Source of the DNA: Trichocoleus desertorum ATA4-8-CV12 | GTDB lineage: Bacteria; Cyanobacteriota; Cyanobacteriia; FACHB-46 | Length of the DNA stretch: 64,000 bases | Direction: 5' to 3' | NCBI GenBank assembly: GCA_019358975.1 | Contig: JAHHIL010000003.1 | Location: forward strand, 124,001 to 188,000 | In this document: positions 26,434 to 40,646 of the stretch, piece by piece | Layout of the letters: each line of letters opens with the position of its first letter | How positions within the stretch are numbered: position 1 is the first letter of the stretch | Translations under genes and position numbers: made by a program | The notes under the pieces: model-generated | What the model was told of the DNA's origin: nothing | Database searches by the model: none | Seen by the model: the letters and a program-made list of their open reading frames with translations, nothing else

Positions 26434-27510
26434 GCCGATCGTCCTCTTCCGTGTCGATGCCCAGTTCCTTGTGTTAGATAAGCCTTCTGCCAGCAGATTG
26501 GTTCATTCTGCTAAACCCAGTCTAAGAAGAGAACATCGGTTGAGCAATATTCTTCGTCACTGGGCTTCCTGCTTAGAACGCTACTGAATCCACCTACATA
26601 AATACGAGAGGGTCATGATGAGTTCACTGCTCCTACCATCTCTAGTTAATTGGTTACTAGCTGCTGCTTACGACCAGCAATCTAAATTACAAGTGGGATT
26701 GCCCTCCTAAGCACTTTTGTCGTCGAAAACTCAACCATCTTAGCGTCATCGTATCCCTAAGACTGCTTCACCCATCACCTTGGGTTGAGCAAAGTCAATC
26801 TGTATTGACTTTAAAGGATTCCTACAGCAGATGGCTCTGCTAAAGGTAGAGTGACACAATCAACGGCTGAAAGTACAGGTCTAGCGCACCATACTAACCC
26901 TTACAACCCGCGATCCAGTGAGAATTGCAGTAAAAAGGCTATTTAGATCTAAATAATCAAAGTTTTGTCGGAGAAGCAAAAAATGTAATAGTTATAGCCT
27001 CAAGCCTTAGAGCCAGCCAAGTAAGGAAGATGCCAATAGCCCTGTCAAAGTCTTAAACTAAACTGAATATATACTTCAGTGACCCTGTACTATTTCCACA
27101 ATCTAGCATCATTTCTAGCAGAGATGTCGAAGCACCAATTCTTCAAAAAATTTTTCACTGACTAGTCCACGCTGACAGGTTAGTGGCATCTGCCCTGAGA
27201 AGGTCTGATGCTGAGTTAGGTTTTAGGATTAAGCTACAAAAAATTACTTTTGTTCCGTTGATCAACCAAATTTTTAATGTTACGAACAAGGGAAAACAGT
27301 AAGCACTTAGTCCTTCTGTTAGGCACTCATAGGGCAAAAACTCGTAGGAGGTTTGTAAAATTTTTAACGCAGGTTTGATTTCCTACTGATCGTCATTGTT
27401 TTTTGTAGGAATATCTGCGGTGGGCAAGAAACTTAAAACGATTTAGTTTGAGTCAGGTTTCCCCTTGACACGTGTCGAAGCTGTTCTTAGGAGAGCATCA
27501 TAGCTGCATC
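26434..27510. other. 1.1-kb divergent control region between hmpF and the chemotaxis operon
   Basis: This is the longest gene-poor stretch in the window. It is AT-rich from about 26900 to 27470 and lacks HIP1 octamers over most of its length. It should contain the promoters of hmpF and the PatA-like gene, possibly with a long 5' leader on the latter. A 31-codon ORF at 26615-26710 is the only coding candidate. No terminator or known RNA family was recognised, and no sigma-factor box could be assigned with confidence. Confidence 0.5.
26615..26710 (+). CDS. Possible 31-residue hydrophobic small protein
   Basis: An ATG-ATG start with GAGAGGG a few bases upstream opens a 31-residue frame. It reads MMSSLLLPSLVNWLLAAAYD and then a short polar tail ending before TAA. 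The first 18 residues could be a membrane-inserting helix. It lies in the hmpF/chemotaxis divergent region. It may be real or chance; only the ribosome binding site and hydrophobic pattern support it. Confidence 0.3.
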   Translation: MMSSLLLPSLVNWLLAAAYDQQSKLQVGLPS

Positions 27511-28788
27511 ATGCAAGGCAAGTTAAACGAGATAGACATCCGCAGCATTCTACAACTGATTGAACTGGGTCAACGAACCGGGGAGCTTTGTGTTGAAGCT
27601 TATGGTGCTTTGCCAAGCCTGATGAGCAGTGAGCGTCTAGGGCGATCGCTATCTAGCCAGTCTTGGTTTGTCTTTTTCCTCAACGGCCAAATTGTCTATG
27701 CTGCAGAAGGGGATGGCAATTTAGCACGCCTGCGTGACTATCTTCGTCGCTACAAAGTAGAAGCGGCACTCGACACTGTCACTGTCCCTTCGATTGCTGC
27801 CATTAATGCCCCTGAGTACGGCTACTTGTGGGCCTTGTTAGAGAACCACCTCCTAACCCCAGCCCAAGGCCGCAGCATCATCCGCAACATGGTGCATGAA
27901 ACGCTTTTTGACTTACTGAGCTTGCATCAAGGTTTGTTTATTTTTGAAATTGGCTCCGCCCTATCCCCCCAGCTCACCACCTTGGAGATTAACCCGCTGG
28001 TAGCCAAAATCATGAAGCAAGTCCAAGAGTGGAAACAATTTCACCCCCACATCCAATCACCTGATCAGTGCCCGATTATTGCTGATGCCAATCAGCTACG
28101 GAAAGCGTTGCCCGAAAAGGCCTTCAATAGCCTAGATCGTTGGGCTGATGGCAAAACCTCAGTCCGCCAAATGGCTCGTTATCTCAATCGAGACATCCTT
28201 ACAGTTGCTAGAGCAATTTATCCGTATGTGCAGCAAGGACTTGTACAACTGCTGTACCCTACCGCCAAAGAAACGGCTGCTCACAAGCGGACATTTACGT
28301 TTCAAACTGCCCGGACTCCCAGAGTCCTTTGTATCGACGATGGCACCAGCATCCGCAAAGCAGTGGAGTACATCTTAAGTCAACATGGTTATGAAGCCAC
28401 ATCAATTGGGAATCCTCTAAAGGCACTCAGTTTAGTATTTCAACTCAAGCCAGATTTGATTCTTTGTGATATTGCTATGCCTGAGTTGGATGGTTACGAA
28501 ATTTGTGCCATGCTACGCAAATCAACGGCTTTCCGGCAAACTCCTATTGTGATGTTGACGGGTAAAGATGGATTTATTGATCGGGTAAAAGCTCGTATGG
28601 TCGGGGCAACTGACTACCTCACTAAACCGTTTGGTGAAAATGAGCTGCTCATGCTAGTGGAAAAATACGCTGGCTCAGGTGACCCCAACCATCCCAAACC
28701 GGATAGGTTACTGGCTGACGCCCTAGAGGACGAGCTAGAAATTGACATTGCTGGTCCAGCTTCTGCTTCCTCAGCGCCTTTTGGTTAA
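27511..28788 (+). CDS. PatA-type response regulator (PATAN + receiver)
   Basis: 425 residues from the ATG at 27511, which begins the PATAN/DUF4388 domain with MQGKLNEIDIRSILQLIELG; a GTG at 27472 would add 13 residues. The PATAN region spans about 1-240. The receiver domain spans about 270-390: DD in VLCIDDGTS, phosphoacceptor D320 in ILCDIAMPELDG, and Lys in YLTKPFGE. This matches the PatA-subfamily regulators (PilG of Synechocystis) that head pil/hmp chemotaxis operons and act as CheA outputs on pili. First gene of the run PatA-CheY-CheW-MCP-CheA. Confidence 0.92.
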   Translation: MQGKLNEIDIRSILQLIELGQRTGELCVEAYGALPSLMSSERLGRSLSSQSWFVFFLNGQIVYAAEGDGNLARLRDYLRRYKVEAALDTVTVPSIAAINAPEYGYLWALLENHLLTPAQGRSIIRNMVHETLFDLLSLHQGLFIFEIGSALSPQLTTLEINPLVAKIMKQVQEWKQFHPHIQSPDQCPIIADANQLRKALPEKAFNSLDRWADGKTSVRQMARYLNRDILTVARAIYPYVQQGLVQLLYPTAKETAAHKRTFTFQTARTPRVLCIDDGTSIRKAVEYILSQHGYEATSIGNPLKALSLVFQLKPDLILCDIAMPELDGYEICAMLRKSTAFRQTPIVMLTGKDGFIDRVKARMVGATDYLTKPFGENELLMLVEKYAGSGDPNHPKPDRLLADALEDELEIDIAGPASASSAPFG

Positions 28789-28932
28789 GCATTGAGGGTA
28801 TTTTAGTGATTAATGAGTGATTAATCTAAAGATCAAGGATTAAGGTGACTAATACAAACCTAAGGATTAAGTTTAAGGGTGTACAAGGTCGATCTTTCCC
28901 GTTAACCTTTGCAGTTAGCAGGTAGGGTAGTT

Positions 28933-29298
28933 ATGAGTACAGTTCTAGTTGTGGAAGATAGTGTCACGCAACGGGAGATGATCACAGACCTTCTCAAAGG
29001 GAGTGGCCTAACTGTTACTGTAGCTAGCGATGGGGTTGAGGCATTAGAGCGCATCCAATCACAGTGCCCTGATTTGGTGGTCTTGGATATTGTGATGCCG
29101 CGCATGAACGGGTATGAGGTTTGCCGTCGATTGAAAGCAGATCCTAAGACCCAAAATGTCCCAGTCGTCATGTGCTCTTCTAAAGGTGAGGAGTTTGACC
29201 GCTACTGGGGCATGAAACAAGGTGCGGATGCTTATATTGCCAAACCTTTTCAACCCACAGAGTTAGTAGGAACAGTCAAACAGCTGCTACGAGGATAG
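28933..29298 (+). CDS. CheY-type single-domain response regulator
   Basis: 121 residues from the ATG at 28933, preceded by GGTAGGG; the upstream TTG at 28909 is not needed. It is a complete receiver domain: E-D pair in VVEDSVTQ, phosphoacceptor D52 in VVLDIVMPRMNG, and Lys in AYIAKPFQP. This is the second gene of the pilus chemotaxis operon, equivalent in position to PilH/PixH/HmpB-type proteins. It would be phosphorylated by the hybrid CheA and act as an output or phosphate sink. The CheW gene starts ten bases after its stop, so the two are co-transcribed. Confidence 0.94.
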   Translation: MSTVLVVEDSVTQREMITDLLKGSGLTVTVASDGVEALERIQSQCPDLVVLDIVMPRMNGYEVCRRLKADPKTQNVPVVMCSSKGEEFDRYWGMKQGADAYIAKPFQPTELVGTVKQLLRG

Positions 29299-29308
29299 GT
29301 AGACGTGA

Positions 29309-29839
29309 ATGGTTGGGAATCCAGATTTTTTAACAGGTAGAGGTCAAGACCAAGCTCCAGAATTTCAGGAATTAGAAAGTCCTGAAGGTGAGTTGCACTT
29401 AAGATTCTACGTATCTTCTGGCAATGAGTTTGCTTTACCTGCCACAGGAATTCGGGAAGTGATTTCGCCTTCACCGGATCGGATTACCCCCATTCCCAAC
29501 GTTTCTCCCTTACTTTTGGGTACGCTGAATGTACGTGGGCGTGTCATTTGGGTGGCTGATTTAGGCCAGTTTCTGGGCGATGCTAATTCTCTCAATACGG
29601 ATAGACCAGAGATTCCTGTCATTGCAGTAGAAGATCAAGACACCATGTTAGGGTTAGCGGTTGATCGAATTGTGGGGATGGATTGGCTAGACATTGATGA
29701 GGTGCAAATGCCAGCAAACGTTCCGGATAGCATGGCTCCGTTTCTACGGGGCGAATGGATGACGGACAGTCAAGATGACAAGCTGCTCCGATTACTCGAT
29801 CAAATCGCAATTCTTCGATCAGCGCGGTGGGCAGCATGA
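29309..29839 (+). CDS. CheW-like adaptor protein
   Basis: 176 residues. The CheW fold is recognisable from about residue 30: LRFYVSSGNEFALPATGIREVI, PIPNVSPLLLGTLNVRGRVIWVADL and VEDQDTMLGLAVDRIVG. A conserved DSMAPFLRGEW near residue 142 is typical of cyanobacterial pilus-type CheW proteins (PilI/PixI). It couples the MCP to CheA in the receptor array. The start ATG is ten bases after the cheY stop. The first 28 residues are variable and acidic. Confidence 0.94.
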   Translation: MVGNPDFLTGRGQDQAPEFQELESPEGELHLRFYVSSGNEFALPATGIREVISPSPDRITPIPNVSPLLLGTLNVRGRVIWVADLGQFLGDANSLNTDRPEIPVIAVEDQDTMLGLAVDRIVGMDWLDIDEVQMPANVPDSMAPFLRGEWMTDSQDDKLLRLLDQIAILRSARWAA

Positions 29840-29952: not shown

Positions 29953-32928
29953 ATGGCATCCAGCACTGAGTACGCGCAAGAATATCAACAAGCGCAGAAG
30001 GCATATTATCAGGGAAGCTATGATGAGGCGGCTGCGATCGTCGATCGCTTGACTCAAGACTTTCCTGATGACCCCAGTGTCCATCTTCTGAGGGGACATA
30101 TCTACTGCTACGGACTCCAGCAGTATGATGTGGCACGCGAGCAATATCAACGTGTGCTGGGCTTAACCTCTGATCCAGAATTTCTCGATTATGCAAATAG
30201 CGGATTGGCTTACACTAACGAACTTGCTGTTGATGAGGGAGTTTCTTCAGCCGCCAATTTGGATGATGGGTCTGCTAATTTTCAAGAGCTGGAGGATTCT
30301 TCAAATAGCTCTGACTATGGGGCCGCAGAAAGTTGGCAGTCCTATGAAGAACCCGCTTTTGACTTTAACAACGCTGAGTTAGAAAGCTTCGACGATTTTG
30401 ACTCTGGCTTGGGTTTGGCAGAAACCCCGATGGCTTTTGATCAGCCGTTTGATGAACCTGTTGATACGCCTGCGACGGAAGCACCCTTTGGTGATCCCTT
30501 CTCTAGTGGCACCTCCTACTCCAATGCTGCACCTTTAGAAAATGCTGCCGATCCGTTTGTCTTTGATGAATATCTTGATACTCAAGATTCAGGAATTCAG
30601 CAACCATCCGCATCAGCCAGCTCTGACTTTTCGCCCTTTGGAGCTGACGCCGATCTGGGTCAAGGCGAATTTGATGCCTCTCTAGACCAGTTTGACGATG
30701 TCTTTCAGCCTCTAGACTTTCCAGAAGACGATGTGAGTGCGGATGCTTCGTTGTATGCGGTGAGCGATCAAGATAGGCCGTATAGCGATCCGTCACCTTC
30801 CCCAGGCTTTTCGGTGGGTGGTGACGCTTCTTCAAGTAGTCCCTTTAGTGCGAATTCTCCCTTAAGAGAAGACGAAACGCTCTTCATGGCTGATGAGGAA
30901 GCGGACGATTTTAACGCTGATAGTTTTGGCTATGCGGATCCAGATTCAGCAGACTACGGTGCCAGTAACTACGAGCAAGATGAGCAAACCTTTGTCTCAT
31001 CTTCTAGTTGGAATGGGTTTGACGCTCAGGACAACTTGAACGTCAGTACCTTTGATGATGGTTTTTCGGGCACAGAGCCTGCGACCGAAGGCCCCTCTTC
31101 TAGCGAAGGCATTGGCCGCCAGAGTAGCATTGACTTTCTTGATGAGTTCGATGAGTTTGATGACCTAGGAAATCTCCCCGATTTTGATATCTCTGAAAGT
31201 TCTGCTGGCTTTACGAGTCCTTCTGTCGGTTCAGCCGCATTTGGCGGTTTGGGTGGGACTTCGGGGTTAAACAGCCGCCGAGGTCAAGAGAATGCTTCGC
31301 CAGAAGCTGCTGCGGGGTTGGGCTTTACTTCCAGTATGGGAGATGTCGATTTCAGCGATAGTGGCGATCGCTCCATTATTCGGGATGACGAAGTATTCGG
31401 GATTGCTGGCAACTCTGAACAAGTTCCCATCTTTACCCAAAACGACAGCCTGAATGTTGAGCCCACTGTCACGGCTGAGCAGGGTATGTTGTCGTTCCTA
31501 GACAATGCCTCCCTGAAAACCAAGCACTTGATCACAGCAGGTGCGGTCGGAGTGATCTCAGCTTTAGCCGTTGCAGCTGTTAGTTGGGCAACCGCTCGGG
31601 GTGCCGTAGAGGAAAAGCGGCCCGAAGTCGTTGCTAGCTTGAGACAAACTGGGCTAATTATGGCTCTCGTAGCGGGTGTCAGTAGCGGCGGTGTGGCTTA
31701 CTTCATGGGGCGCAAAACTGCTAAACAAATTCAGCGAGCGACTGATAATTTGCAAGCTCAATTTCAGTCTGTGTCGCAAGGAAACCTGGATGCTAGAGCG
31801 TCCGTTTACTCAGAAGATGAATTTGGCCAGTTAGCCGCTGGGTTTAACCAAATGGCACGAGTCATCCTCACAACAACCAGTGAGGCGCAGCGGAAGGCAG
31901 AGGAACAAGAGCAGGCCAAGGAAGACCTACAACGTCAAGTGATTCGCCTCTTAGACGACGTAGAAGGCGCAGCCAGAGGTGACCTCACAGTTCAAGCTGA
32001 AGTAACCGCTGACGTACTGGGGGCGGTTGCAGATTCGTTTAACTTAACGATTCAAAACCTGCGCGAAATTGTGCAACAGGTGAAGTTGGCAGCCCGACAG
32101 GTGAACAAAGGCGCTTCTGACAGTGAAATGTTCGCTCGCGGCTTATCATCTGACGCTTTACGGCAAGCAGAAGAGTTAGCTGTGACGCTCAATTCTGTCC
32201 AGGTCATGACTGACTCGATTCAGCGGGTGGCTGAAAGTGCTCGCCAAGCTGAAGAAGTGGCTCGGTCGGCATCGGCAACGGCCCTCAAAGGGGGTGAGGC
32301 AGTAGAAAGCACGGTTTCCGGTATTCTCAAAATCCGCGAAACGGTGGCGGAAACGACTCGAAAGGTAAAGCGGCTGGCCGAATCGTCACAAGAAATTTCA
32401 AAAATTGTGGCGTTGATTTCTCAGATTGCTTCTCGTACCAACCTGCTAGCACTTAACGCTAGTATTGAGGCAGCGAGAGCGGGTGAGGCTGGACGTGGGT
32501 TCGCGATCGTTGCTGATGAAGTCCGACAGTTAGCTGACCGGGCCGCAAAAGCTTCTAAGGAAATTGAGCAGATCGTGCTACAAATCCAGAGCGAAACAGG
32601 CTCCGTGATGACGGCCATGGAAGAAGGGACTCAACAGGTGATTGAGGGGACTCGCTTAGCAGAACAAGCGAAGCGATCGCTGGAAGACATTATTCAAGTG
32701 TCTAACCGCATTGATGCCTTGGTTCGTTCCATTACTGCCGATACAGTAGAGCAGACCGAAACCTCAAGAGCCGTAGCTCAGGTCATGCAATCGGTCGAAC
32801 TGACAGCTCAAGAAACTTCCCAAGAAGCCCAACGAGTTTCGGGATCTCTACAAAACCTAGTAGGTGTAGCCCGTGACCTCTTGACTTCCGTAGAACGATT
32901 CCGCGTAGAAACAGGAGATCGGCAGTAG
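29953..32928 (+). CDS. Methyl-accepting chemotaxis protein with N-terminal TPR and long acidic linker
   Basis: 991 residues. Residues 1-95 form TPR-like helices ([20 protein letters not shown]...[12 protein letters not shown]). About 95-515 is an Asp/Glu/Ser/Phe-rich low-complexity linker. Two transmembrane helices lie near 528-548 and 566-588 with only a short loop between them, so there is no periplasmic sensor domain. HAMP-like segments follow (about 590-700). The signalling hairpin carries the tip [35 protein letters not shown] near 824-858. It has no GAF domains, so it is a PilJ/HmpD-type rather than a PixJ/TaxD1 photoreceptor. The sensory input would come from inside the cell through the TPR and linker. 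Confidence 0.93.
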
Positions 32929-33221: not shown

Positions 33222-36200
33222 ATGCAGTCAGAACAACAGCAGCGAATCATGGGTTACTTCATTGAGGAGGCCAAAGACCACCTCAACACCATTGAGCAAG
33301 GTTTGCTGAATCTGCAGAGCACCATCGAAGACTCTGAAATGGTGAATGAAGTCTTCCGAGCGGCTCACTCTGTCAAGGGCGGAGCGGCAATGCTAGGAAT
33401 TAATAGCATTCAGCAGGTTTCGCACCGTCTAGAGGACTGCTTCAAACTCTTAAAAGAGTGCCCCATCAAAGTTGATCAAAAATTAGAGTCATTATTCCTC
33501 AGGGTGTTCGATACTCTGCACGAACTCCTAGAGCAACTCCAAGGGCCATTTGGTCTGACTGAGGATACTGCTAACGGCATTATGTCAGGCATTGAGCCGA
33601 TTTTTACCGAGCTTACCAATCACTTGGAAGGACTCATCACTCAAGCAGGCGGTGTGATTCCGGTCGAAGAAGGGTCTAGCTTTATACCTGTTGTGGTTGA
33701 GGCTACCCCAATCCCGGTTTCAGCCGCTCCTCTGCATCAAGAAGAAAGCGCTCTGCTATTGCTTTTCCAAAGTGATGTGCCGACTCGCTTACGCGAGATG
33801 TTGCAGTTGTTTAAGCAGTCCGAAAATTCAGAGAATCGCCAACAACTGCAAGACCTTTGCCGTGGTTTGGGGCAACTGGGTGAACCGTTCGATTTGCCGA
33901 GTTGGTGCGATTTGCTTGAGGTGACACGACAGGCGATCGCTTGTCCGGATAATGCTTATCGCACTCTAGCTCCGATTGTCATCAAAGAAATCAAAAAAGC
34001 GCAAGAATTGGTTCTATCTAACCAAGCAGCAGCCATTGTAGCGAGTGATGCTCTGAGCGTTTTAGTGCCAATTTCGTCTGCCGCAGCTGAGACAGAGCCC
34101 ACCTTTGATGACCTGCTGGCTGCGGATATCTTTGAATTTGCTAACGAACCGGAAGAGTCTCTGACGGGAGCCTTCGACCTATTTGAAGCCGCAGAAGATC
34201 CCTCTGAAGTTGACATTTTCGCTGTGGATCTGGCTGAGGACAGTCAATCAGCAGATAGTCAGTCAGCTGGGCTGGACGATTGGTTTAGTGGTGCCCCTCT
34301 AGAATTAGACGCAACGACCAGTGACGCAGCTCTCGGTCTAGACCTATCCGCTAATCTCAGTGGAGATGCGGCAACGCCTGAGCAGTCTACAGGCGATCGC
34401 AACGGTCCAGAAGTAGGGATGGCAGAGCTAAACAGCCTAGCCGACCTCTTTGAAGGTGAAGTTCTGGATTTGGGCGTCACTTGGCAAGAAGAAGAAATTA
34501 TTAGAGAGGCAGCTGAGTCGATAGAAAGCTCCGCAAACAATGCAGTCAACTCAGATGATTTCGATTTCTCGGATGACTTCTCAGATTTACTCTTTGAGGA
34601 GCCAGATGGGAGCGGTTCCTCTGCCAAAGCCAAGGCAGCAGATGATCTAGCCAGCTTGTTTGGCAGTGATGACTTACTCAACGATGAATCTCTCGACTTG
34701 CCAGAATTCGAGGAAATCGCTGATACGTCACTGGATGCAGCCGCGATCGCCCCGGAAGCGCAACCGGATGAAGACTTCCTAGGGGAATTGGCAGACGGCT
34801 TTGAGTTAGATGTTCTCGTAGTCGAGTCATCTGTGGACAGCTCTACTTTGGAATTCTCTGAATTTGAGACTTCAGAATTTGAGACTTCAGTAGCTAATGC
34901 CCCTGCGGAGGAGCTAGAGAGCTTTACGGATTTATTTGTTGATGTAGATGAGACTGAGCTATTTGTTCTAGAAACCTCTACGGAAGAGGCCACTACAGTT
35001 AACTCAGGCGATTTAAGCTCAGATGAGCTAGACTCAGACGCTCTAGGCTCAGATGATTTCACTGATTTTCTCAGTGAGTCTACTGCACAAATCTCTTTTG
35101 AGGCGCTAGAGAGCGAGCCAGATCTCTTTGCTTCTGAGCCTATGTTGGAGGCTGATGCGGAATTAGAACTCGCTCTAGACAGCCCAGAATCCATCGGGCT
35201 ATTCGGTGAAGAAGTTGCTCCGGAATTGGTAGCAGATAATCTGGCGGTAGATGAGACAGACCTTGACAATCTCTTTGAAACCCCTGAAGACTCTGCATTC
35301 TTAGCGGACACCACCTCCACAGCAATCAGCGACCCCACAGCAATCGACGATGAAGATGATCTATCCAATGACCTTTGGTCAGAGGGAAATACCGACTCCT
35401 CAGAGCCAGTTGTTTCGTGGTTAGACACTCCTCTAGATGAGACAGAAGAGGAACCGTTTGATTTGTCCTTAGATCTAGGGGAACTCAGTGCTGAGACAGA
35501 AACCGCTGATTTTCTGGGTGATTTCTCTGAAGAAGTAGCAGCCACAGAGGCCGCAGAAACAGATTTAAATGACCTGTTTGCTCCTAGTGAAGACCAAGAA
35601 TTAATCCTTGATACTAGTGCCACCAATTCCTTAGCAGTAGACCCAACTCCTGAACAGCCTCCAGCGGCGATCGCTGATCCTTGGGAGGAGCAAGGGCTAG
35701 CAGACAGTACCTCCGATTCTGAGCCTGCTTGGAATTTAGATCCCCTAGATGAAGATCTTTTAGCAACTCCGGAAGCCATTAGCGATGGTGGAGAAAATCC
35801 TTTTGATGCAGTTGGTGAAGAGTTAGAAAGCTTGGACTTTGATCTAGAGGTATCCCAAGATCTTGATGACGCCTTCATTTTTGCCGCAGAAGCTGACGAA
35901 GAGTTACTGCTAGAAGAACCAATAGAAGAACCAACGGGCGAAGCAGAAGTGTCTGATTGGACGCTGGCTGACCTGGGAGATTCTAGCGATGAATTGAGTC
36001 TAGACTTGCTCGAAGATTCCAGTGCCGAAGATTCCAGTACAGATGCGATGTCAGATCTTTGGGATACAGATGCTTTTGAGCAACAGAGCTTAGATGCTGC
36101 TGTTGCTGAAACTGATCTCAGTAGCGAGTTTGACTCGGCGTTATTGCCAGAAGAACCTGGTGAAGAACTCAGTGACGCTGATGAATTTGCCGACTTCTTG

Positions 36201-39200
36201 CTTGAAACGGAGCTGGTTGAAACAGAACTGGTTGAAACAGAACTGAGCGATCGCGTTGATGATCTTAGCGTTGATGACAGCGCTGGTGATCTTGGCTTTG
36301 AACTCAGTCGTGATGAAACGACCGACCTTTGGGGAGACGACTCCGCAGCCACAGATGAGTCAGCCTTGGATGACTTATCTCTAGGTACATCGGTTGCGGC
36401 TACTGAGAGCACCGACAACCTAATTTTTGAGGAAACCATTGAAGAATCGGTTGCAGAGCCCGTTACAGAGGCTTTAGATTTAGCCGATATGTTCGCTGAG
36501 TCTGCTGAACTTAGCGAGTTAATGGCTGGTGCAGAAGAATTCGATTTTGATCTGGCCAGCGATGAAGCTAGCGATCTAGAGGTTGAAGCGTCTACATCCG
36601 AAGCTGATCTAACATCGCTGAGCGCAGAGGATACGGGGGATTGGGGTGGTTCTGCTGATGACCCACTAGCAAACTTTTCTATAGAAGCTGATTTTGCTGA
36701 TGCCACAGCAGACCCGGATCAGGTGAGTTCCGACACGGATGATTTTGACTTTGACTTCATGACTAGCGATGGAGCTGATGATCGTGAGGTCGGAGAGTCT
36801 ACAACAGAATTGGATGGGCTCTTCGACGCCACAGCTTCAGACACCGATCTCTTTGATCAAGAATTGTCGTTAGAAGTGGCAGAGCCAAATTCTGATTTGG
36901 GCGATCTAGCAGACTTTATGGGTGAGCCTCTAGAAGCTAGAGATGCTAGCTCAGACCTGAGCGAACTTGAAGGTTTATCACTCAGTGATTTGTCGATCGA
37001 TCAGCCAGAAACTCCTGAAGACCTTAGCTTTGAGCTTGCAGCAAATACATCGGACGAGCTAGACTTTGGCGCTGACTTGACTTCGTCGGCGGACTTAGGA
37101 GACTTGTTGGATGACTCGCCATCTGAGCCAGATGCGATCGCTTTCGACTTAGACAACTTTGATGATTTGTCACTCGATCAACCATCGGCTGAGTCACCAG
37201 AGACTAGTGAAGACTTTATCTTTGAGCCAGCAGAAACCTCCAACGAACTGGACTTTGGTGCTGAGTTAGACTTCGACCTAGACGCAACTAGCAGCAATAC
37301 TGAAGCTGATGCTCTGGCTGATATTACCGCCACCGAATCCTTAGACACTGCTGATTTTGCCTTCGACTTAGACAGTTCAGATGCCAGCTTCAATGAAGAT
37401 GAACTAGAATTTGACAGCTTATTGGCATCTGATCTCGATCTAAGCGAATCTTTGACACCCGTGGAGCCATCCATAGAAACTGAGAGCGAGTTGGACTTTG
37501 GGACCGAACTGGCAGCAGAGCCGTCTATAGAGGCGGAGAATGAGCTGGATTTCGGGGACGAACTAGCGTTAGAAGGTTTATTTGATGCAGAACCATCATT
37601 AGATAACCTCAGCGAAGCCGATCTGTTTGGGTTATCTGATGAGCCATCTGAAGCGTTAGATAACCTTAGTGAAGCCGCTATTGACGAAGATACAAATAAT
37701 GAAAACTGGCTTGGTGACTTTGATGCTGGTGTAGCTGACATAGCAACTTCTACAGACGCAGACTCTGCCACTAGCGACGAGTTAGGTGACTTCTTCGCCA
37801 CAGAGTCGAGTGATTCCACAGCTGACGAACCAGTTGATCTTTTTGCTGATTCCCTAAATACCGAAGCGGTAGCCGAAGATGACTTTGGCTTCGACACGCT
37901 CGATTTCTCTGATTTATCTTCTAACGAAACAGATGAATTGAGTGACGCGTCAGCCGAGTTGGATGCACTATCTGCTCTGGTAGAGGATGACTTAACAACT
38001 CCTACAGAATCAACCCTAGAACAGCCAACAGAATCCAGCTTTGACTTCGATGAAGTAGACCTTGATCTCTTCGATGTGGCACCAGACACAGCCGCTGCCA
38101 GCGTTGCAGATACGGGAGATTTTGATTTCAGCTTAGAAAGCTCTGAAGCAGTAGATGAAAACGATTTTGATTTATTCGCGCTTGACTCAGCCGATGACTT
38201 CTCTAGCAGCTTAGATCTTAGTCAACAGACCAATTCAGATGTGACAGATACTAGTGACACTGATTTGGATGACTTCTTAGCCGCAGCGATGGAAGATAGC
38301 TCACAGGATAGCTTTGATTTCGCTACAGAGTCAGCTGGGTCTTTAGACAACTTTGATGATTTAGAGGCATTACTCAACGAAGATGACTCTGCCACGTCAT
38401 CCTCCGCATCTGTTGCTTCAGAAGATGCAGACTTCTCTGGGCTAGAAGCTTTACTAGATGAGGAACCTTCAGGTTGGAATACTGGGTCGGGAGGCGCTGC
38501 TGCTTTTGATGGAGTTGCGGGCAATGCTGACTCTGCTAGTGGCCTAGATGGTGAGTTTGATGACCTAGAAAAGCTGCTAGAGGATGCTGATAACACCCTA
38601 GGTGGACCCCCGACTGTGAAGACTAGTCGAGGAGCGGCTCCTCAGTCTAGCCGTCGGCCTGGTCGTCGCGGAGCTGCGGGTTTTGCTGAGCAGACCATGC
38701 GAGTCCCCGTAAAACACCTGGATAACCTGAGTAACCTGGTTGGGGAACTGGTGGTTAACCGGAATAGCTTGGAGCAAGACCAAGAACGGTTACGGCAGTT
38801 CCTAGATAATTTGCTTTATCAAGTGCAGCAACTCAGCGATGTGGGGCAGCGAATGCGTGACTTATACGAGCGATCGCTATTGGAAAGCTCACTCTTAGCG
38901 AGTCGCCAAAGTCATCAGTCTCCCCTACATAACACTAATGCTAATGGTGGGGCTCAGAACAGCCATTCTACAGGAGCTAGCTTCGATGCCTTGGAGATGG
39001 ACCGCTTTACGGGGTTCCATACTTTATCCCAAGAGATGATCGAGTTAATTGTCCGAGTGCGGGAGTCTGCGTCTGACATTGAGTTCATCGTGGATGAAAC
39101 CGATCAGGTGACTCGGATGTTCCGGCAAGTCACGACGCAACTGCAAGAAGGTCTGACTCGTTCCCGAATGGTGCCTTTCGCCCAGATTGCCGATCGCTTG

Positions 39201-40646
39201 CCACGAGCGGTACGCGATATTGCTCTCAAGTGCGGGAAGCAGGCAGAATTGCATGTCGAAGGTCGCGAAACCTTGATTGACAAGATGATTCTGGAACAGC
39301 TTTATGATCCCATGACTCACTTGGTCAACAACGCGATCGCCCACGGCATTGAGACTCCAGAAGTGCGACAAGCAGCCGGGAAGCCACCTACTGGTCGCAT
39401 CACGATTCGGGCCTTCCATCAAGGGAACCAAACGGTAATCTCCGTCTCTGATGATGGAGCGGGAATTGAGCCAGAGCGCGTTAAAACAAAAGCGATTGAA
39501 AAACGCTTGATTACATCAGCCGAGGCCAGAACGCTCTCTCGGTTGGACATTTATGACCTGCTGTTCCATCCTGGATTCACCACTCAGGATCAAGTCACTG
39601 ACTATGCAGGCCGTGGCGTTGGCATGGATGTAGTTCGCACTAGCTTAGGCGAAATTCGCGGTGCGATCACCACTGATTCTGCGGTGGCCAAGGGAACGAC
39701 GTTTACCATTCGCTTACCGCTCACGTTGAGCATTTCTAAGGCCCTCTGCTGTATCAGTAATCGGGCGCGCATTGCCTTCCCGATGGATGGGGTAGAGGAC
39801 ATGCTAGATGTGCCAAAGGAGCGAATTCAAGCCAATCCAGACGGTCAACCTTGCATTCTGTGGCGAGATTTGCTATTGCCCTTCCGACCGTTATCCGAAA
39901 TCCTCAAATACAACCGTTATCTGGGCCGTGGTAGCGTCTACGGGGGTAATCAGGAAGATGATATTGTCTCCATCGTCGTGCTGCGGAGCGCTGGCAACTT
40001 TATTGCTTTGCAGGTAGACCAAGTACTAGGCGAGCAAGAAATTGTAATTAAGCAACTAGAAGGCCCAGTACCCAAACCCATTGGGGTAGCGGGTGCCACA
40101 GTTCTAGGAGACGGTCGGATTATGCCGATCGCGGATGTGTTAGAGCTGATCGACCTATCTATGGGTCGGATTCGCCGAGAAGCTAGCACCACTCTGTGGG
40201 ATCAAAGTGCTGAACCCCCTGTAGCTGAACCCGTTGCTAAAACTGACCCGACGGTTCTGATTGTGGATGACTCGATTACGGTACGTGAGCTGTTGTCCAT
40301 GACGTTCAACAAGATCGGCTACCGAGTTGAACAAGCGCGTGACGGTCAGGAAGCTTGGGAAAAACTACGCTCTGGCTTGCCCTGCGATATGGTGTTCTGT
40401 GACATTGAGATGCCTAGGATGGATGGACTAGAGCTGCTATCGCGGATTCAGAAGGACTCTACGCTCAACCATATCCCGATCGCGATGCTGACCTCACGGG
40501 GTGCCGATCGCCATAGACAGATGGCTGTCCAACTCGGTGCAAAGGGTTACTTCACCAAGCCGTATCTAGAAGAAGCTTTGCTAGATGCAGCTCAACGCAT
40601 GCTCAAAGGCGAAGTCTTGATTGCTGGTAGTGGTAGCCACGCCTAA
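33222..40646 (+). CDS. Giant CheA hybrid histidine kinase with ~1500-residue acidic region
   Basis: 2474 residues. The Hpt domain is at 1-110 with phospho-His H49 (FRAAHSVKGGA). A helical segment follows to about 280. An uninterrupted Asp/Glu/Ser/Leu/Phe-rich low-complexity region then spans about 285-1790. The dimerisation domain starts near 1826 (MRVPVKHLDNLSNLVGELVV). The HATPase has its N-box (HLVNNAIAHGIE) near 2030, G1 (DDGAGI) near 2075 and G2 (GRGVGMDVV) near 2130. A CheW-like domain covers about 2180-2310 and a receiver about 2343-2465 with phosphoacceptor D2394. It is the kinase of the pilus-motility signalling operon (PilL/HmpE type). The frame is fully open with no sign of decay. 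The acidic region, half the gene, is the unusual part. Confidence 0.93.
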   Translation: MQSEQQQRIMGYFIEEAKDHLNTIEQGLLNLQSTIEDSEMVNEVFRAAHSVKGGAAMLGINSIQQVSHRLEDCFKLLKECPIKVDQKLESLFLRVFDTLHELLEQLQGPFGLTEDTANGIMSGIEPIFTELTNHLEGLITQAGGVIPVEEGSSFIPVVVEATPIPVSAAPLHQEESALLLLFQSDVPTRLREMLQLFKQSENSENRQQLQDLCRGLGQLGEPFDLPSWCDLLEVTRQAIACPDNAYRTLAPIVIKEIKKAQELVLSNQAAAIVASDALSVLVPISSAAAETEPTFDDLLAADIFEFANEPEESLTGAFDLFEAAEDPSEVDIFAVDLAEDSQSADSQSAGLDDWFSGAPLELDATTSDAALGLDLSANLSGDAATPEQSTGDRNGPEVGMAELNSLADLFEGEVLDLGVTWQEEEIIREAAESIESSANNAVNSDDFDFSDDFSDLLFEEPDGSGSSAKAKAADDLASLFGSDDLLNDESLDLPEFEEIADTSLDAAAIAPEAQPDEDFLGELADGFELDVLVVESSVDSSTLEFSEFETSEFETSVANAPAEELESFTDLFVDVDETELFVLETSTEEATTVNSGDLSSDELDSDALGSDDFTDFLSESTAQISFEALESEPDLFASEPMLEADAELELALDSPESIGLFGEEVAPELVADNLAVDETDLDNLFETPEDSAFLADTTSTAISDPTAIDDEDDLSNDLWSEGNTDSSEPVVSWLDTPLDETEEEPFDLSLDLGELSAETETADFLGDFSEEVAATEAAETDLNDLFAPSEDQELILDTSATNSLAVDPTPEQPPAAIADPWEEQGLADSTSDSEPAWNLDPLDEDLLATPEAISDGGENPFDAVGEELESLDFDLEVSQDLDDAFIFAAEADEELLLEEPIEEPTGEAEVSDWTLADLGDSSDELSLDLLEDSSAEDSSTDAMSDLWDTDAFEQQSLDAAVAETDLSSEFDSALLPEEPGEELSDADEFADFLLETELVETELVETELSDRVDDLSVDDSAGDLGFELSRDETTDLWGDDSAATDESALDDLSLGTSVAATESTDNLIFEETIEESVAEPVTEALDLADMFAESAELSELMAGAEEFDFDLASDEASDLEVEASTSEADLTSLSAEDTGDWGGSADDPLANFSIEADFADATADPDQVSSDTDDFDFDFMTSDGADDREVGESTTELDGLFDATASDTDLFDQELSLEVAEPNSDLGDLADFMGEPLEARDASSDLSELEGLSLSDLSIDQPETPEDLSFELAANTSDELDFGADLTSSADLGDLLDDSPSEPDAIAFDLDNFDDLSLDQPSAESPETSEDFIFEPAETSNELDFGAELDFDLDATSSNTEADALADITATESLDTADFAFDLDSSDASFNEDELEFDSLLASDLDLSESLTPVEPSIETESELDFGTELAAEPSIEAENELDFGDELALEGLFDAEPSLDNLSEADLFGLSDEPSEALDNLSEAAIDEDTNNENWLGDFDAGVADIATSTDADSATSDELGDFFATESSDSTADEPVDLFADSLNTEAVAEDDFGFDTLDFSDLSSNETDELSDASAELDALSALVEDDLTTPTESTLEQPTESSFDFDEVDLDLFDVAPDTAAASVADTGDFDFSLESSEAVDENDFDLFALDSADDFSSSLDLSQQTNSDVTDTSDTDLDDFLAAAMEDSSQDSFDFATESAGSLDNFDDLEALLNEDDSATSSSASVASEDADFSGLEALLDEEPSGWNTGSGGAAAFDGVAGNADSASGLDGEFDDLEKLLEDADNTLGGPPTVKTSRGAAPQSSRRPGRRGAAGFAEQTMRVPVKHLDNLSNLVGELVVNRNSLEQDQERLRQFLDNLLYQVQQLSDVGQRMRDLYERSLLESSLLASRQSHQSPLHNTNANGGAQNSHSTGASFDALEMDRFTGFHTLSQEMIELIVRVRESASDIEFIVDETDQVTRMFRQVTTQLQEGLTRSRMVPFAQIADRLPRAVRDIALKCGKQAELHVEGRETLIDKMILEQLYDPMTHLVNNAIAHGIETPEVRQAAGKPPTGRITIRAFHQGNQTVISVSDDGAGIEPERVKTKAIEKRLITSAEARTLSRLDIYDLLFHPGFTTQDQVTDYAGRGVGMDVVRTSLGEIRGAITTDSAVAKGTTFTIRLPLTLSISKALCCISNRARIAFPMDGVEDMLDVPKERIQANPDGQPCILWRDLLLPFRPLSEILKYNRYLGRGSVYGGNQEDDIVSIVVLRSAGNFIALQVDQVLGEQEIVIKQLEGPVPKPIGVAGATVLGDGRIMPIADVLELIDLSMGRIRREASTTLWDQSAEPPVAEPVAKTDPTVLIVDDSITVRELLSMTFNKIGYRVEQARDGQEAWEKLRSGLPCDMVFCDIEMPRMDGLELLSRIQKDSTLNHIPIAMLTSRGADRHRQMAVQLGAKGYFTKPYLEEALLDAAQRMLKGEVLIAGSGSHA
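34860..34889 (+). repeat. 15-bp tandem repeat in cheA acidic region
   Basis: GAATTTGAGACTTCA is repeated twice head to tail, giving EFETSEFETS in the protein. It is a perfect in-frame duplication and shows one way the acidic region grows. Confidence 0.85.
36204..36248 (+). repeat. 15-bp tandem repeat (x3) in cheA acidic region
   Basis: Three head-to-tail copies of a 15-base unit (GAAACGGAGCTGGTT, GAAACAGAACTGGTT, GAAACAGAACTGAGC) encode ETELVETELVETELS. Units are in frame and differ at a few bases, so the expansion is not brand new. Confidence 0.85.

Follow-up and report, generated by a model that had tools for sequence, protein, structure and literature searches.

A long acidic linker with conserved motifs in the pilus-type CheA of Trichocoleus desertorum

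Why does a CheA kinase carry about 1,510 acidic, repetitive residues between its phosphotransfer domain and its kinase core? The question is raised by a gene in a 64,000-nucleotide stretch of Trichocoleus desertorum ATA4-8-CV12 (assembly GCA_019358975.1, contig JAHHIL010000003.1, positions 124,001 to 188,000 of the forward strand), which we call the window and whose own numbering is used here, with features on the plus strand unless stated otherwise. It touches the open question of how signals pass from cyanobacterial chemotaxis-like systems to the pilus apparatus, and how these systems bring proteins to the active pole. The gene is one uninterrupted reading frame (33222-40646), with an ATG start and no stops, and encodes a 2474-residue CheA with the Pfam order Hpt (residues 9-107), H-kinase_dim (1823-1879), HATPase (2031-2168), CheW (2175-2311) and receiver (2345-2457). 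The linker (residues 286-1795; 34077..38606) makes up about 61% of the protein, in agreement with an earlier note on this DNA, made from the sequence alone, which had described a CheA of this length with an acidic low-complexity region of roughly 60 percent. A slice of 1530 residues (286-1815) contains 465 acidic and 14 basic residues and no Y, H or C, the commonest residues being D (16.7%), E (13.7%), L (12.5%), S (12.4%), A (12.3%), T (6.7%) and F (6.0%); the net charge of the linker is -454, and its longest run free of K, R and H is 543 residues. In a charge-hydropathy test, 98.6% of 60-residue linker segments fall on the disordered side. The explanation that we favour, and to which we give slightly better than even credence, is that the linker is a selected, disordered polyacidic tether that carries docking motifs and lies between the phosphotransfer head and the dimeric core.

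Comparison with other cyanobacteria shows that the linker is not an oddity of this genome. We searched 390 Cyanobacteriia genomes for the kinase core and measured linkers at 80 extracted loci. A core orthologue was found in 285 of the 390 genomes, often in frames of 1,500-2,700 codons, with core identity mostly 50-84% outside the genus. Among 66 diverse orthologues with linkers of at least 250 residues, linker length ranged from 285 to 1,755 residues (median 834), and composition was shared (D/E mostly 23-33%, K/R mostly 1-3%). The window linker, 1,525 residues long in the survey measure, ranks fifth of the 66; linkers in named genomes include 1,449 residues in Elainella saxicola and 1,681 in Trichocoleus, with 700-1,300 common in Nostoc and Calothrix. 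The earlier note had considered the length unusual even for PilL/PixL proteins, and this view has to be given up: most orthologues in related genera carry the same kind of linker, an outcome that the note itself had named as telling against the idea, and the class-wide survey rules out length as an anomaly. An assembly or repeat artefact is also ruled out, because a same-genus genome assembled as a single contig (G001) has a 1,530-residue linker. The other two CheAs of the window genome (859 and 794 residues) have short, ordinary linkers, and in Cyanobacteriota outside Cyanobacteriia the best CheAs lie in frames of at most 1,031 codons. The long acidic linker is a typical feature of the cyanobacterial pilus-type CheA and, in the genomes searched, is largely confined to it. 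One paralogous CheA core (G148:C1:85927-87393) sits in a 2162-codon frame, unlike the other paralogues.

Judged by its sequence, the protein encoded at 33222-40646 belongs to the cyanobacterial type IV pilus CheA class (PilL/HmpE). Its domain order fits that class, its core orthology extends across it, and the gene order (PATAN-type regulator, CheY, CheW, methyl-accepting chemotaxis protein (MCP), CheA) fits the operon of the class as listed for Synechocystis, where pilG-H-I-J accompany a split pilL-N/pilL-C (PMC7076178). The Synechocystis tax3 and Nostoc hmp systems share this gene order and these domains, and the linker of the window CheA is among the longest in the class. Where a lineage has split the CheA gene, as in Synechocystis, the kinase half retains a shortened acidic segment.

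The linker holds a single-copy island, motif A (GPEVGMAELNSLADLFEGEVLDLGVTWQEEE; residues 395-425; 34404..34496), with the consensus GPEVGxAELNSLADLFEGExPDLGxTWQEE. It is nearly invariant in 34 aligned orthologues; since these had been picked for carrying its core pattern, the independent evidence consists of its recognisable presence in 48 of the 66 linkers, at a median position 102 residues into the linker, and of genome counts. As a degenerate DNA pattern, motif A gave a single match in each of 55 out of 145 genomes, compared to 0 for the reversed control, its location inside CheA being confirmed only where one contig holds both motif and core. The strict form was observed 37 times, with 0 expected from shuffled linkers. 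Motif A is identical in three same-genus genomes. It also occurs in Nostoc and, in Moorena, where the protein is split, in the half with the kinase; in the window protein, AlphaFold2 (AF2) predicts a helix at residues 400-411 (predicted local distance difference test score, pLDDT, about 77 for the block). With 30 residues nearly unchanged while more than 1,000 surrounding residues drift, it offers a precise handle on the linker. In several draft genomes (G107, G032, G127, G081, G028), motif A and the kinase core are often on different contigs, which suggests that the assembly is interrupted within the linker; short CheA frames in drafts may therefore be truncations.

Motif discovery, in which gapped tetrapeptides were enumerated and compared with locally shuffled linkers, gave a second class, the repeated and amphipathic motif B ([DE]FxDL[DE]xLL), with 116 copies in 50 of the 66 linkers (1.6 expected); its strict form was observed 82 times (0.09 expected). 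The copies gather at the C-terminal end of the linker, often 20-50 residues apart, and in the orthologues the last copy lies a median of 30 residues upstream of the start of the core. In the window protein, copies lie at residues 1711 and 1779, and a variant at residue 1738. The first copy (DNFDDLEALLNED; residues 1709-1721; 38346..38384) coincides with a helix predicted at low confidence (residues 31-38 of the modelled fragment); the variant second copy (DFSGLEALLDEE; residues 1737-1748; 38430..38465) was recognised by reading the sequence, and its core is unchanged in G001 and in another same-genus genome, G002; the terminal copy (GEFDDLEKLLEDADNTLGG; residues 1777-1795; 38550..38606) is backed by the position of the last copy in orthologues and is modelled as a helix with a pLDDT of about 79. 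Neither motif A nor motif B was found in the MCP, the PATAN protein or the other neighbouring open reading frames. In its own genome, the strict DNA pattern of motif B matches CheA and one other site, the latter probably by chance. The earlier note had suggested that acid-rich motifs of this kind can mimic partner-binding peptides or drive condensation; these two conserved classes lend real support to the first idea, and both were absent from the note.

Against two same-genus relatives, the window protein shows 99.6 and 96% identity in the core and 89.5 and 59% in the linker, with motifs A and B unchanged despite the drift of the linker around them. The ratio of nonsynonymous to synonymous substitution rates (dN/dS) was 0.27 and 0.16 for the linker vs. 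0.013 and 0.018 for the core, the linker value of 0.16 being rough because dS is near saturation and the alignment is uncertain in the second comparison. Single-base changes touching K, R or H account for 3 of 129 and 3 of 226 changes in the linker, compared to 13% expected. The linker is thus under purifying selection, and positive charge is selected against. The aromatic residues of the window linker are, moreover, more evenly spaced than in shuffled sequences (coefficient of variation 0.745 vs. 0.945; 2 in 1,000 shuffles), and the coefficient is lower than its own shuffled mean in 53 of 60 orthologues. Taken together, the avoidance of K, R and H and the even aromatic spacing indicate that, beyond the motifs, composition, charge and spacing are preserved as well.

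The linker also contains the repeats that the earlier note had listed, namely LDFG (four copies), EPSIE and LDNLSEA (two each) and (S/I)(L/I)DQP-ETxED units; relative to locally shuffled expectation, LDFG (4 vs. 0.09), FDF (7 vs. 1.1) and DLF (10 vs. 1.9) are in excess. In-frame 15-bp tandem arrays lie at 34860..34890 (EFETS), 35018-35056 and 36202..36245 (ETELV), the last with three copies in the window and two in G001, and two copies of a unit of about 65-70 residues with LDFG (residues 1256-1349; 36987..37268) are further amplified in G002. These arrays and copy changes between genomes support the proposal, made in the same note, that the linker grows by local duplication, to which loss has to be added. 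They also bear on a passive account of the whole region, in which slippage and duplication expand the linker, selection acts only to preserve solubility, disorder and the lack of positive charge, and the motifs are relics of duplication. In-frame duplications of 15 bp and about 70 residues, the wide span of orthologue lengths and the failure to find any domain in the linker all agree with that account, but motif A is conserved between families amid scrambled surroundings, so that recent duplication cannot be its source, and the terminal motif B remains beside the P3 domain even in split PilL-C proteins. We therefore consider a purely passive linker unlikely.

If the linker is instead a selected tether with docking motifs, it would part the phosphotransfer domain P1 and a second helical bundle from the kinase core and give the phosphotransfer head reach. 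Its negative charge would keep the chain extended and the evenly spaced F, L and W residues exposed, and motifs A and B may fold into short helices that bind partner proteins. Total length would be buffered, in that motifs and charge count and exact length does not. In E. coli CheA, a folded P2 domain binds response regulators and speeds phosphotransfer; the motif array could similarly raise the local concentration of partners near phosphorylated P1. No P2 or CheY-binding domain was found in the window CheA by Pfam, which matched no family anywhere in the 1508-residue linker searched at E<=10, and by analogy the tether and its docking motifs probably substitute for it. A bolder version, which we take seriously while doubting it, is that pilus CheAs swapped a folded P2 for a polyacidic scaffold in which motif A and the motif B array serve as docking sites for specific partners, perhaps confined to cyanobacteria (PATAN regulators, HmpF or a protein of the pilus base), with valency tuned by motif duplication.

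Several observations weigh against a docking tether. In 18 of the 66 orthologues, mostly the most divergent, no motif A can be recognised, and some short-linker lineages retain little of the linker region. None of the operon products offers itself as a basic partner, the net charges being -1 for CheY, -4 for the PATAN regulator and -15 for CheW. A profile of motif B searched against a PDB set, from which peptides shorter than 20 residues are excluded, retrieved only a prolidase (E=1.4). The CheY-binding peptides at the FliM N-terminus and the CheZ C-terminus present a hydrophobic-acid-x-L-L pattern on an amphipathic helix, which motif B resembles; homology was rejected, since the profile found no FliM or CheZ chain at E<=10 in that set, and the likeness stays a lead only.

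The P2 argument makes the response regulators of the operon the first candidates for binding the motifs: a DUF4388/PATAN-type regulator (27472..28788) and a CheY-like regulator (28909..29298), both recognised by Pfam, as is the CheW that follows them (29309..29839). That they are the likeliest partners is a tentative suggestion with a modest chance of being right; otherwise, the partner might be another polar or pilus-base protein. HmpF is a further candidate because the hmp system controls its localisation (PMC12288463).

The remaining gene of the operon, the partner MCP (29953..32928; TPR, acidic F-rich region, HAMP and MCP signalling domain, from the open reading frame list and Pfam; net charge -104 by count), contains, between TPR and HAMP, a segment of low complexity that is acidic and rich in Phe and spans about 450 residues (D/E about 20%, F 8%). 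Such a segment occurs in nearly all of the 58 orthologues measured, and its length correlates weakly with that of the CheA linker. The region enters into another explanation, in which aromatic and leucine stickers in the acidic chain drive condensation and co-cluster CheA with the MCP at poles or septa. The near-universal presence of the segment agrees with this, and the even aromatic spacing of the CheA linker is compatible with condensation without showing it. Both chains are strongly negative, however, and should repel each other, the operon offers no basic partner, and receptor arrays already cluster CheA without such a linker, which makes a clustering role quite improbable.

Between the terminal motif B and P3 lies a basic hinge (residues 1800-1822, with RRPGRR; 38619..38687), conserved in 50 orthologues with a median net charge of +5 over 26 residues. 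Its position directly after the acidic region suggests an intramolecular latch, in which the linker and terminal motif B fold onto the hinge or core and restrain kinase activity or access to P1; that the terminal motif B helix is modelled with higher confidence than the other copies fits this proposal. One hinge, however, cannot need 1,500 acidic residues, and nearly 1,400 residues separate it from motif A, so we regard a latch as improbable.

In the acidic exposure model proposed for transcriptional activation domains, acidic residues keep hydrophobic ones exposed, and these domains likewise place aromatic residues and leucine among acids and form short amphipathic helices on binding. The likeness to the CheA linker is one of physics only and implies no transcriptional role. 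The closest architectural precedent for a selected tether with docking motifs is the C-terminal scaffold of RNase E, whose tail combines conserved disorder, biased composition and tandem repeats with partner-binding microdomains (PMC4435900). RNase E is unrelated to CheA, and its partners (RhlB, enolase and PNPase) are known; the linker would be a chemosensory-kinase example of a disordered region selected, as in RNase E, for composition and embedded motifs. Extended unstructured regions in CheA proteins without P2 are already known: over half of the surveyed CheAs lack P2 and have an unstructured region in its place (PMC10782961). The window CheA resembles these in lacking a Pfam P2 and in having a region between Hpt and P3 that is disordered by calculation (charge-hydropathy, and AF2 at its two ends), and differs in its strict acidity, great length and two motif classes. 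In the literature searched, mostly titles and abstracts with subscription journals thinly covered, we found no description of the acidic composition or of motifs A and B.

The folded parts of the protein are those expected of a CheA. AF2 models cover residues 1-446 and 1682-2474, and thus both ends of the linker. In the first, P1 and a second four-helix bundle are predicted at pLDDT >95 and the linker mostly at <50; the second shows the kinase core and receiver, disorder N-terminal of the core and short helices where the copies of motif B lie. In the two modelled linker ends, it is mainly motifs A and B that are predicted as helices, the rest of the modelled linker being below 50. Foldseek matched both models to CheA P1 and CheA core structures only. 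P1 (residues 9-107; 33246..33542; Pfam Hpt E=2.6e-16) matched 1i5n and 3kyj, and the P3-P4-P5 core with the receiver (38688..40592) is supported by Pfam, AF2 and Foldseek. The second bundle (residues 172-265; 33735..34016), with helices at 172-198, 203-223, 226-240 and 246-265 (pLDDT 96-98), lacks a phospho-acceptor His and matched no Pfam family, and would be pseudo-Hpt-like; it remains with the kinase half in several split PilL-C proteins. Pseudomonas ChpA reportedly has extra Hpt copies; hidden folded domains or further Hpt copies in the linker of the window CheA were rejected, with no Pfam match and low pLDDT where modelled. On the minus strand opposite the linker, three open reading frames (34259-36706, 815 residues; 37178-38089, 303 residues; 38222-38596, 124 residues) were taken as no evidence of genes, being a Ser/Lys-rich mirror of the acidic codons; gene-calling programs could be misled by them.

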